A stretch of 64,000 nucleotides of DNA from Mycoplana azooxidifex. Lineage in GTDB: Bacteria > Pseudomonadota > Alphaproteobacteria > Rhizobiales > Rhizobiaceae. Shown here one piece after another: positions 59,782 through 63,214 of the stretch. The position numbers were made by a program, and so were the translations under genes. How positions within the stretch are numbered: the stretch's first letter is position 1; every line of letters begins with the position of its first letter. The notes beneath the pieces are model-generated. The model searched no databases, had not been told where the DNA came from, and was given only the letters and a program-made list of their open reading frames with translations. The DNA lies in assembly GCF_014196765.1 (NCBI RefSeq), contig NZ_JACIEE010000008.1:62001-126000 (forward strand), written 5' to 3'.

Positions 59782-62160
59782 TCACGTCCGGCTGGTCTTG
59801 CGACCCTTTGCCGGCGCCTTGGCCCCGGCACTCTCGCGCGCCTGTTCGAGCAGGCGCTGCATCGCCCATATGCCGAGATCCTCGACGGTGCGCGGCTGGC
59901 TGATCAGGTAGCCCTGGTAGAGGTCGCAGCCCGCAGCCGCCAGCAGCGTCATCTTTTCCGTCGTGTCGACGCCCTCGGCCACGACCTGCATGTCCTGCGC
60001 GTGGCAGAGCGCGATCAGGGCGCGCAGCGTCGGCAGCGCTGACGAATTGGTCAGGCTCTCGACGAGCGCCCGGTCGAGTTTGATCGTCTCGGCCGGATAG
60101 TCGATGATCTGCTGGACCGAGGTGTAGCCGGCGCCGAAGTCGTCGATGGAGATGCGAAAGCCTTTCGACCTGAGCATGTCGATATTGCGCTGCGACTGGT
60201 CACCGAGCTTGACGGCGAAGGTCTCGGTCAGCTCGATCTCGATCGAGCGCGCCTCGACCGCGTGCCGGTCGAGTGCATCGCAGAAGCGATCGGCGATCGA
60301 GCGGTTATAGAGTTCCGCCGACGAGATGTTGATGCAGAGGATGGTTTCCGCGCCGAACAACTGCTTGATCCGGTGGCAATTGGCCATTGCCGTGTCGATG
60401 ACCCAGGAATCGACCTTGCTGAAGAGGCCGGTGGTTTCCGCAATGGGTATGAACTCGTCCGGCGTGACCCGGCCGAGCAGCGGCGACGTCCAGCGCAACA
60501 GCGCCTCGCAGGCCGTCACCTTGCCGTGGCCGTCGACGATCGGCATGAAGACGAGGTGCATCTCGTCGTCCGGGTTCATCGCCCGCAGTTCCTCCTCGAT
60601 GTGGCGCTGCCGCGTCCGCTTTTCGTGCAGGGAGCGCGAGTAGCGCGCCGAGCCGTTCTTGCCCTGCGCCTTGGCTTGGTACATGGCCGCGTCCGCATTG
60701 GCGATCAGTTCCGGCAGGTCGGCTGCATCCTCGGGGAAGACCGCGATGCCGATGCTGGCCGTGACCGGATAGGACTGTTCGAGCACTTCGAAGCCGCCGT
60801 CGAACAGCCGCACGATCGCTTCGGAGATCTCGCTGACGGTGCCGTCGCCCGGATGCGACTGCACCATGATCGCGAACTCGTCACCGGAGAGACGCGCCAC
60901 CAGCGCATCCGGCAGGACGCGGCGCTCCGTCACCGCCTTGACGCGCATTTCCAGCCTTGCTGCGAGCGTCGTCAGCAGTTCGTCGCCGACCTTGTGGCCA
61001 TACTTGTCGTTGACGAACTTGAAGTTGTCGACGTCGATGAACAGCAGCGTGCAGCCGGCGCTGGATGCGCGCGCCAGTTCCAGGATCTGGGTGGACCGGT
61101 CATTGAAATGCGCCCGGTTGGAGATGCCGGTCAGCGTGTCGGTCCACGACGCGGTCCGCACCAGCCCGAAGGATTCGACCGCATCGTCGTGAAGCTGCTT
61201 CATGTTGACCGAAAGCCGGCCGATCTCGCCGAGTTCCTCGACCGGCGTCAGTTCGCTGCGCTTGCCGGACATGACGTCGGTCAGCTGCCGGTCGAGGCGG
61301 GCGATCGGATTGGTGATGAACCGGCGCACCAGCAGCAGCACGAGGCCGATGGTGAAGAGGCTGAGGCCGATGGCGCCGACCGCGAGCAGCGCCTTCAGGT
61401 TCGCAAGCTTGTCATCGACATGGCCCTCGTGCGGCGTCAGGCGCGCGTATAGCATGGGGCCGAGCTTGGCCGTCGCGGACACGGCGCCGGTCGCGGTCAG
61501 CGGATGTGTCGAAACCTCGACTTCGGCGCCGTACTCCTGCTCGAGCTTCGCCTTCATTTCGAGGAACTGGCGCGGGCGGACGGCCGTCTGGATCAGGATC
61601 GAGCCGGCCTTGGCGCTGGAGACGGGGCGATTGAAGGTCTGCTGGTCGAGGAATTCCGAATGGACGATCAGCGGCTCCGCCCCTTGCGGCTTCAGATAGG
61701 TCCAGTCGGAGAGCTTGGGGCTGTCGATCAGCCGCCGCGCATGCTCGACCTGCACCTTCGGGATTTCCGCGAACGGATCGTCGCTGTTCTCGTAGTAGTA
61801 ATCGATCGAAAGCGGCGGGCGGATGACGGTCAGGGAGACGAAGCGGGTGGGATCGTCCGACAGCGACCTGATGCTTTCCTGCATCATCACGCCGATGGCG
61901 TTCGAGCGGTAGCCGGCATCCGGCTCGTTGACGAACAGGCGCATCGCCGTTCCCTCGACCAGCGAATAGATCAGGCTCTTGTTCTGCGTCACGTCGTTCT
62001 GGAATACCGCCCCCAGAAGGCCCAGTTGCTGCCACAGGCGCGCCCGCTCGAGCCCCCGGACGGAGGCGCTCTGGCTCATGTAGAGCAGGGTGGCGGCCAC
62101 GACGTAGCCTGCGAGGACGACCGGGAAGATGAGGAGGAAGGCGCGCTTACCGAGTGTCAC
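59782..62160 (-). CDS. Membrane-bound HAMP-GGDEF-EAL c-di-GMP enzyme with periplasmic sensor domain
   Basis: 792 residues. TM1 is at 7-27, a periplasmic domain at about 28-256, TM2 at 257-279, a HAMP-type linker at 280-335, GGDEF at 335-500 and EAL at 520-770. The GGDEF motif is SGDEF (425-429), with DTLTGISNR and FIDVDNFKFVND intact; I see no RxxD inhibitory site. EAL is complete: CEALLRW (Glu552), INISSAELYN, ELTE, DDFGAGYTS, IKLD, AEGVD, QGY. The start is GTG at 62160, inside the end of the upstream binding-protein gene, so the two are translationally coupled. Architecture matches Vibrio MbaA. Net activity, cyclase or phosphodiesterase, cannot be read from sequence. Confidence 0.9.
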   Translation of the reverse strand: MTLGKRAFLLIFPVVLAGYVVAATLLYMSQSASVRGLERARLWQQLGLLGAVFQNDVTQNKSLIYSLVEGTAMRLFVNEPDAGYRSNAIGVMMQESIRSLSDDPTRFVSLTVIRPPLSIDYYYENSDDPFAEIPKVQVEHARRLIDSPKLSDWTYLKPQGAEPLIVHSEFLDQQTFNRPVSSAKAGSILIQTAVRPRQFLEMKAKLEQEYGAEVEVSTHPLTATGAVSATAKLGPMLYARLTPHEGHVDDKLANLKALLAVGAIGLSLFTIGLVLLLVRRFITNPIARLDRQLTDVMSGKRSELTPVEELGEIGRLSVNMKQLHDDAVESFGLVRTASWTDTLTGISNRAHFNDRSTQILELARASSAGCTLLFIDVDNFKFVNDKYGHKVGDELLTTLAARLEMRVKAVTERRVLPDALVARLSGDEFAIMVQSHPGDGTVSEISEAIVRLFDGGFEVLEQSYPVTASIGIAVFPEDAADLPELIANADAAMYQAKAQGKNGSARYSRSLHEKRTRQRHIEEELRAMNPDDEMHLVFMPIVDGHGKVTACEALLRWTSPLLGRVTPDEFIPIAETTGLFSKVDSWVIDTAMANCHRIKQLFGAETILCINISSAELYNRSIADRFCDALDRHAVEARSIEIELTETFAVKLGDQSQRNIDMLRSKGFRISIDDFGAGYTSVQQIIDYPAETIKLDRALVESLTNSSALPTLRALIALCHAQDMQVVAEGVDTTEKMTLLAAAGCDLYQGYLISQPRTVEDLGIWAMQRLLEQARESAGAKAPAKGRKTSRT

Positions 62161-63214
62161 GGAACTGGACCAGGCTGCTGATGATGCGACGGCGGGATTG
62201 CACCGAGGGAACGCTGAGTTCCTCCTGATACTGGCTCTTCGCCAGGATCTCCGGTGCGGTGTAGATTTCGGCGTTCCCGCGCATGTCGGCGGGGATGAGT
62301 TCGAGCGCCGCCCGGTTCGCGGTCGGCATCTGGAGGGCGATGGCATTGCGCGCGGCACTTTGGGCGCCCGCGATGTGGTTCAGGAGATCCAGCGCGGCCT
62401 CGGTGTGCTTGGAGCGGGTGCTGATGGCCATGCAATCGAGCCAGAAGAGCGTCCCCTCGGACGGCACGGCATAGCGCCATAGCCGCTCCTTGCCGGTCAT
62501 CTCGTCCAGGACATGCTGGTCGCCGCTGTAGCCGAGCGCCAAGTGCACGTCGGGGCCGACATCCGGGTTCTGGATCGAGGTGATGACGTAGTCGTAGGTC
62601 AGCACGTAGGGCGCCTGCGCCTTCATCATCTGGAAGGCCTCCCGCAGCGTCGTCTCGTCGTTCGCGTTGATCGACTTGCCGAGCAGGACCAGCGCCGGCA
62701 CGAAGGCCTCGTTGTGGTCGTCGAACATGGCGATGTGGTGCCGCAGCGGCTCGCCGGGTTTCATCAGGTCCGCCCAGGAAGTCGGTGTCGTGGTGACCGC
62801 GTCCGACCGGTAGAGGATCCCCATAGTTCCCCAGAGATAGGGCACGCCGTATCCGCCGCAGCGCTTCGTCCAGCTTTCGTCGTACTCCGAAAGTGACGGA
62901 AGCGTGTCGGGCGAGAGCGCTTGCAGAATGCCGCGATCGCCGAAGAGCCTCGCCCCGTTCTCGCCGGTGACGACGAGATCGATATCGCTGCTGGGATTGG
63001 AAAGCACCTCGTCGCGTGCATCGCTGCTGTCATAGTAGGTCTGGTGGACGGCGATGCCCGTCCGTGCCGACCAGTCCGACAGGATCGACGGATCGATATA
63101 GGCCTGCCAGATCAGGAGGTTGATCGTTTCGGCAGCCTCTGCGGGCGGCGATGTCGACAGCGATATCGGCAGCGCGGCCGCCGCTGCTGCCGCCATCAGC
63201 ATGGATTTTCGCAT
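62147..63214 (-). CDS. PotD/PotF-like periplasmic polyamine-binding protein
   Basis: 355 residues with a signal peptide to about residue 28. It has the PotD/F fold: NLLIWQAYIDPSILSDW, VPYLWGTMGILYRSDAV, TSWADLMKPG and GTLFWLDCMAI. Residues corresponding to the polyamine pocket are kept: aromatic Trp36, Asp165/166 and Glu169 in MFDDHNEAF, Trp258 and Asp260 in FWLD. No permease or ATPase gene is adjacent. Its 3' end overlaps by 14 bases the start of a GGDEF-EAL gene. It is therefore more likely a sensor partner than a transport component. Ligand by analogy: a polyamine. Confidence 0.87.
   Translation of the reverse strand: MRKSMLMAAAAAAALPISLSTSPPAEAAETINLLIWQAYIDPSILSDWSARTGIAVHQTYYDSSDARDEVLSNPSSDIDLVVTGENGARLFGDRGILQALSPDTLPSLSEYDESWTKRCGGYGVPYLWGTMGILYRSDAVTTTPTSWADLMKPGEPLRHHIAMFDDHNEAFVPALVLLGKSINANDETTLREAFQMMKAQAPYVLTYDYVITSIQNPDVGPDVHLALGYSGDQHVLDEMTGKERLWRYAVPSEGTLFWLDCMAISTRSKHTEAALDLLNHIAGAQSAARNAIALQMPTANRAALELIPADMRGNAEIYTAPEILAKSQYQEELSVPSVQSRRRIISSLVQFRDTR

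Follow-up and report, generated by a model that had tools for sequence, protein, structure and literature searches.

What does a PotD-type solute-binding protein (SBP) serve when no transporter is encoded beside it and its gene runs into that of a membrane GGDEF-EAL enzyme? Such a pair lies on the reverse strand of the stretch analyzed here, 64,000 nucleotides (nt) of the 5.9-Mb genome of Mycoplana azooxidifex (positions 62,001 to 126,000 of contig NZ_JACIEE010000008.1, assembly GCF_014196765.1), which we call the window. Our analysis makes it very probable that the locus is a rhizobial NspS-MbaA signalling pair working by the scheme known from Vibrio cholerae and Sinorhizobium meliloti. This identification, already proposed in a first-pass annotation of the same DNA, is supported by the pairing of the two genes, the phylogeny, the orphan status of the SBP and the motifs. 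The gene features are as follows.

62147..63214, reverse strand: nspS-like gene, encoding a 355-residue PotD-type SBP (open reading frame, SBP_bac_8 match, PotD and PotF structures by sequence and fold, NspS clade)
63131..63214, reverse strand: putative signal peptide, NspS residues 1-28 (read by eye; pLDDT < 50 in segments 1-19 and 21-25)
62147..62160, reverse strand: overlap of the nspS end with the mbaA GTG start, 14 nt, stop codon counted
59782..62160, reverse strand: mbaA-like gene, encoding a 792-residue membrane GGDEF-EAL protein (open reading frame, Pfam, matches in relatives)

The nspS-like frame runs from an ATG at 63214 to a stop at 62147, and the mbaA-like frame from a GTG at 62160 to a stop at 59782. 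The first-pass annotation had placed the 14-nt overlap of a PotD-type SBP gene with a GTG-started gene exactly. This GTG start is supported because all 29 relatives' loci (L018-L046) begin their alignment at that residue, with GTG in 28 of them and ATG in one.

Pairing of the genes and phylogeny of the binding protein

The family sample comprised 297 genomes of Rhizobiaceae, our own included, with at most three candidates per genome scored for the MbaA query and six for the NspS query. An MbaA-like protein was found in 33 of them at E ≤ 1.8e-101, the next match (4.2e-78) spanning the enzyme part alone. Matches in the other genomes (32/296) were near full length in 31 and covered residues 1-503 in one, G088. 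At E ≤ 1e-50, an NspS-like protein was present in 33/297 genomes, and these are the same 33. By their coordinates, nspS and mbaA are adjacent and overlapping in every one of these genomes, by 14 nt in 13 and by 4 nt in 20; one genome of the 33, G231, has 9% contamination. The junction sequences themselves were examined for 30 MbaA starts and 31 NspS ends. Since pairing and overlap recur in 33/33 genomes having either gene, the pair is not due to chance, and the conservation across relatives that the first-pass annotation had asked for is there. As in NspS-MbaA, the GGDEF-EAL gene of the window directly follows a PotD-like SBP gene and overlaps it.

Two loci are irregular. The MbaA of G088 (L164, C3) has about 512 residues and ends after GGDEF, with no EAL-like motif found downstream of it within the 7 kb analyzed; it is perhaps a cyclase-only form. 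In Rhizobium sp. RCAM05350 (L096, start 4973), the mbaA frame has 216 residues beside an open nspS frame, which is decay or a sequencing error.

Named genomes were also compared, using the best 80 of at least 566 confirmed loci; 57 served for overlap, tree and residues, 23 PotD-like ones being set aside. The genes overlap by 14 nt in members of the Mycoplana group, in Shinella and in three gammaproteobacterial metagenome-assembled genomes (MAGs), and by 17 nt in 12 Vibrio loci; in Ensifer, Sinorhizobium, Rhizobium, Pararhizobium and Xaviernesmea the overlap measures 4 nt. The figures given in PMC9993111 are each one lower, namely 16 bp for Vibrio, 13 bp for a few Shinella and 3 bp for Ensifer and Sinorhizobium, probably through another way of counting. 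The gene neighbourhood follows the same division: within 1.5-kb flanks of the 29 MbaA loci named above, era lies beside the pair in 10/10 loci with the 14-nt overlap and in 0/19 with the 4-nt overlap. In the Rhizobiaceae sample, the two genes therefore occur solely together, in two forms, each with its own overlap length and genomic setting. At the window locus itself, the downstream neighbour is a convergent open reading frame read by eye as era, and the upstream one a divergent gene, starting at about 63360, read by eye as a cyclopropane-fatty-acid synthase. Terminator-like sites at the locus number 2, against 2.3 expected.

The NspS-like protein matches SBP_bac_8 (Pfam, 1.9e-23) and, in sequence searches, PotD and PotF structures. 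Its model (mean pLDDT 88.3) has as its 30 best fold matches entries titled PotD, PotF, SpuD, SpuE or putative spermidine/putrescine binding proteins. Against the NCBIfam PotD equivalog it scores 122.6 bits, below the cut-off of 582. The SBPs of PotD and PotF transporters are encoded beside permease and ATPase genes, and the window SBP is not. In the host genome, 36 of the 38 SBP_bac_8 hits (counting separately two adjacent pieces on contig C13) have a permease hit within 5.3 kb, whereas the permease nearest to the window SBP is 47 kb away (measured to the first coordinate of each hit, for 150 scored of 166 candidate permeases). The first-pass annotation was thus right that the SBP has no transporter partners encoded nearby, as in NspS-MbaA. 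The five closest host paralogues of this SBP each have permease hits and a TOBE_2 (transport ATPase) hit in their vicinity. The other SBP_bac_8 hit far from a permease (57 kb; C4:228649-229422, L163:4003-5106) sits between a tripartite tricarboxylate-type transporter and a divergent response regulator with a sensor kinase, all named by eye, and is possibly another binding protein serving signalling.

A maximum-likelihood tree was built from 62 SBPs (the window protein, the 57 loci and four host paralogues). The window NspS falls among the Mycoplana and Shinella proteins of a rhizobial clade with 24 rows (100/100), which is nested in a 39-row clade (100/99) with the Vibrio rows and three gammaproteobacterial MAG rows. 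It therefore shares a clade with the known NspS of S. meliloti and Vibrio, apart from PotD. The clade excludes seven PotD-like rows and the four host paralogues; the latter have long branches flagged by the tree program and their own placement is unsure.

The sister group of the NspS clade is a second class of NspS-like proteins with 12 rows (L112, L115-L120, L122-L126; Halomonas, Shewanella, Granulosicoccus, Chromatiaceae and others). The gene after the SBP carries a GGDEF motif in 8/12, encodes a kinase in two and is another open reading frame in one; one is cut short. The ectodomains have about 270 residues. In the two kinase loci (L119:4993-7809, a SAR324 MAG, and L123:5030-8332, Desulfopila), the SBP is followed by a hybrid histidine kinase and no GGDEF-EAL enzyme. 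These kinases have HAMP, receiver and Hpt domains and a dCache_1 match, the last below cut-off in L123. The same type of sensor seems to feed two classes of output.

Domains of the membrane protein and proposed mechanism

The MbaA-like protein has the following parts.

62086..62142, reverse strand: first transmembrane helix, about residues 7-25 (hydropathy)
61393..62085, reverse strand: predicted periplasmic ectodomain, residues 26-256, sensor-domain-like (dCache/CHASE4) by weak fold matches (AlphaFold, Foldseek)
61321..61392, reverse strand: second transmembrane helix, about residues 257-280 (hydropathy)
60655..61146, reverse strand: GGDEF domain, residues 339-502 (Pfam PF00990, 3.4e-37)
60874..60888, reverse strand: SGDEF motif, residues 425-429 (motif search)
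59893..60582, reverse strand: EAL domain, residues 527-756 (Pfam PF00563, 4.8e-62; motifs; alignment to solved GGDEF-EAL proteins)

Hydropathy (19-residue windows > 1.6) gave two hydrophobic segments, within residues 3-29 and 252-286. Together with the ectodomain alignment, which covers 34 of 47 MbaA proteins and the window's (the longer-ectodomain class and three near-copies being omitted), they yield the two helices around an ectodomain of about 230 residues that are expected of NspS-MbaA. No RxxD was found in the window MbaA at what we take to be its usual place upstream of SGDEF. The motif search recovered every EAL block sought, which we assume to be catalytic: EALLRW (residue 552), INISSAEL, ELTET, IDDFG, IKLD, AEGVDT and YQGYLIS. 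The window protein thus combines SGDEF lacking RxxD with the EAL catalytic residues, as in NspS-MbaA, and the two helices, ectodomain, SGDEF and complete EAL described in the first-pass annotation all stand.

In the ectodomain model (mean pLDDT 89.4), mixed alpha-beta units come after a long N-terminal helix. Its best fold match in the PDB is the KinD sensor domain (Foldseek, E 6.7e-4); this match is weak, as are all others, which include DctB, PctC and the CHASE4 domain of PA2072 (TM-score by query 0.34-0.55). A second ligand pocket in the ectodomain is not claimed, the TM-score by query being at most 0.55 among the 50 matches listed.

NspS-MbaA controls cyclic diguanylate (c-di-GMP) in V. 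cholerae (PMC8079147). In the model supported there, norspermidine-loaded NspS binds MbaA, which suppresses the phosphodiesterase and favours the cyclase, and MbaA without NspS is locked as a phosphodiesterase. For S. meliloti, the authors of PMC9993111 likewise hypothesize that undocked MbaA is a phosphodiesterase; in strain 1021, the decrease in biofilm and exopolysaccharide caused by putrescine or spermine was lost in an nspS mutant.

By this scheme, the window NspS would be exported, bind a polyamine in the periplasm and dock on the MbaA ectodomain. Docking, relayed through the second membrane helix and the linker, would shift the balance between SGDEF cyclase and EAL phosphodiesterase and so set c-di-GMP and thereby exopolysaccharide, biofilm and motility. 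A polyamine as ligand is well supported by analogy with the V. cholerae and S. meliloti work; docking, the net phosphodiesterase activity of undocked MbaA and the outputs would likewise follow these two systems. In M. azooxidifex, both the ligand and the direction of control are inferred.

Ligand pocket, cysteine pair and rival explanations

Which polyamine would be read? PMC9993111 names eight residues of V. cholerae NspS that were modelled as norspermidine contacts; we mapped them by spacing through homologues from other Vibrio. Six of the eight are kept in the window NspS (W36, D65, Y229, D232, W258 and D260). The other two are changed, V. cholerae D90 to G84 and F131 to L127; norspermidine therefore need not be the ligand of the window NspS. 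Also present are D166 and E169, at positions that we take to hold ligand carboxylates in PotD. The polyamine-site tryptophans and carboxylates are conserved across 25 aligned rhizobial NspS rows (the alignment holds 24 of the 30 relatives' loci).

At the D90/F131 positions, 31 rhizobial genomes (the 33 less G231 and G088) have G/L in 23, N with L or F in four, D with L or F in three and G/F in one. All 12 Vibrio loci have D/F and none G/L. We looked for a tie between the D90 residue and polyamine biosynthesis and discarded it: long hits to an nspC-like decarboxylase (more than 390 bits; family cut-off 409) occur in 3/3 of the 31 genomes with D and in 11/28 without, which gives no rule, and the window genome has such a hit though its residue is G.

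A pair of cysteines, C119 and C261, is present in 69/69 NspS-class rows (63 distinct), in 0/12 of the second class and in 0/11 PotD-like rows. C261 adjoins the ligand aspartate D260. Judged by titles, no paper returned by a literature search on this pair had NspS as its topic. We tentatively suggest, as a possibility with the odds against it, that most rhizobial NspS outside the S. meliloti group, the window's included, read a polyamine other than that of V. cholerae (D90/F131 being replaced by G or N and mostly L), and that the cysteine pair, exclusive to the NspS class, keeps the signalling form stable or gates it by redox state. If so, S. meliloti, the sole rhizobial system tested so far, would be atypical of its branch. 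How NspS separates near-identical polyamines can be asked at concrete positions, namely the two changed pocket residues and the cysteines particular to its class.

Several points weigh against the NspS-MbaA identification or its working scheme, beginning with the two changed contacts. The HAMP domain of the first-pass annotation was not reproduced in the window MbaA (no Pfam match at E ≤ 0.1). Pfam found none in S. meliloti 4H41 either (E ≤ 0.01), and a sub-cut-off match of 2.8e-4 in a Vibrio homologue; the putative HAMP of the system was placed with Prosite in PMC9993111. A scan for sigma-70-like promoters at the locus gave no match. Correlation of distance matrices, tried as a sign of contact between NspS and the ectodomain, was uninformative: NspS distances correlated with those of the ectodomain no better (0.944) than with those of the cytoplasmic part (0.968; 38 pairs), the values for 23 rhizobial rows being 0.865 and 0.850. 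For S. meliloti, the authors of PMC9993111 regard it as almost certain that the nspS insertion eliminates mbaA expression too. They describe strain-dependent effects, with weaker and only partly NspS-dependent responses in Rm8530, an nspS mutant hardly changed in swimming and, in 1021, in aggregation, and no polyamines found to have opposite effects.

Could the SBP instead serve a distant polyamine ATP-binding cassette (ABC) transporter, the overlap with the GGDEF-EAL gene merely co-regulating the two? The first-pass annotation had named this as one of the outcomes that would defeat its proposal. The protein resembles PotD in both sequence and fold, and ABC permease hits abound in the host (150 scored), but the five closest paralogues all have transporter hits nearby, the SBP never occurs without an MbaA-like protein in the 297 genomes at E ≤ 1e-50, and its clade stands apart from the PotD-like rows; we consider such a role very unlikely. 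A genuine SBP-MbaA pair whose ligand is another amine, not a classical polyamine, is somewhat easier to envisage, if still improbable. Two of the eight modelled contacts differ, and Agrobacterium MotA, which appears among the weaker fold matches from rank 33 on, uses this overall fold to bind opines; this is countered by the tryptophans and carboxylates conserved in the 25 rhizobial rows, by the polyamine-binding titles of all 30 best fold matches and by the polyamine responses that the S. meliloti orthologue mediates (PMC9993111).

The least probable of the alternatives, and only by a little, is that MbaA is catalytically inert or a c-di-GMP receptor. Its cyclase motif is SGDEF instead of GGDEF, and the isolated cytoplasmic part of the V. 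cholerae protein was a phosphodiesterase with no cyclase activity in vitro (PMC8079147); yet all the EAL blocks searched for are present, and SGDEF is required for the V. cholerae response (PMC8079147). An enzymatically active NspS-MbaA pair remains the reading that we prefer.

Comparison with known systems

The first-pass annotation knew of no described equivalent in Rhizobiales, which does not hold: a 2023 paper (PMC9993111) describes the S. meliloti system, nspS mutants included, and lists pairs from Sinorhizobium, Ensifer and Shinella. NspS-MbaA in Rhizobiales is thus already known, and the window pair is real, not new. Judged by title, PMC9993111 alone concerned NspS-MbaA in our search on polyamines, c-di-GMP and periplasmic binding proteins in rhizobia; a search on Mycoplana and c-di-GMP returned what is, by its title, a lysine-acylation review.

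With PotD and PotF of polyamine ABC transporters, the window SBP has in common the fold and the core ligand residues; it differs in having no linked permease or ATPase hit and in belonging to a clade apart from the PotD-like rows. It also carries the cysteine pair, and Y at position 229 where the four host paralogues have W.

V. cholerae NspS-MbaA (VC0704-VC0703) has the same architecture and a short overlap like the window pair (PMC8079147, PMC9993111), but its MbaA has EVL where the window protein has EAL. Homologues from other Vibrio share SGDEF, the cysteine pair and the core polyamine site with the window pair and differ in the two contact residues. Their identity to the window proteins is 27-31% for NspS (four rows), 30-33% for MbaA and 18-21% for the ectodomain (12 rows for the latter two).

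The S. meliloti pair (SMc00991-SMc00992) shares the gene order, the overlapping genes, a protein with two transmembrane segments, an ectodomain of about 230 residues, SGDEF and a canonical EAL (PMC9993111). In strain 4H41, NspS is identical to the window's at 183/328 positions and MbaA at 441/788 (56% each). The two loci differ in the overlap (4 nt in 4H41, 14 nt in the window), in the pocket (D/F against G84/L127) and in their place: the window locus adjoins era, which was not found in the 4-kb flanks of 4H41. The Shinella pairs, listed in PMC9993111, resemble the window pair in both respects of organization, with a 14-nt overlap in two named Shinella and era alongside; these two have N or S at the D90 position where the window has G, and no cfa match in their 4-kb flanks. 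The window pair thus adds a genome of the Mycoplana group to those with the published polyamine-sensing c-di-GMP system.

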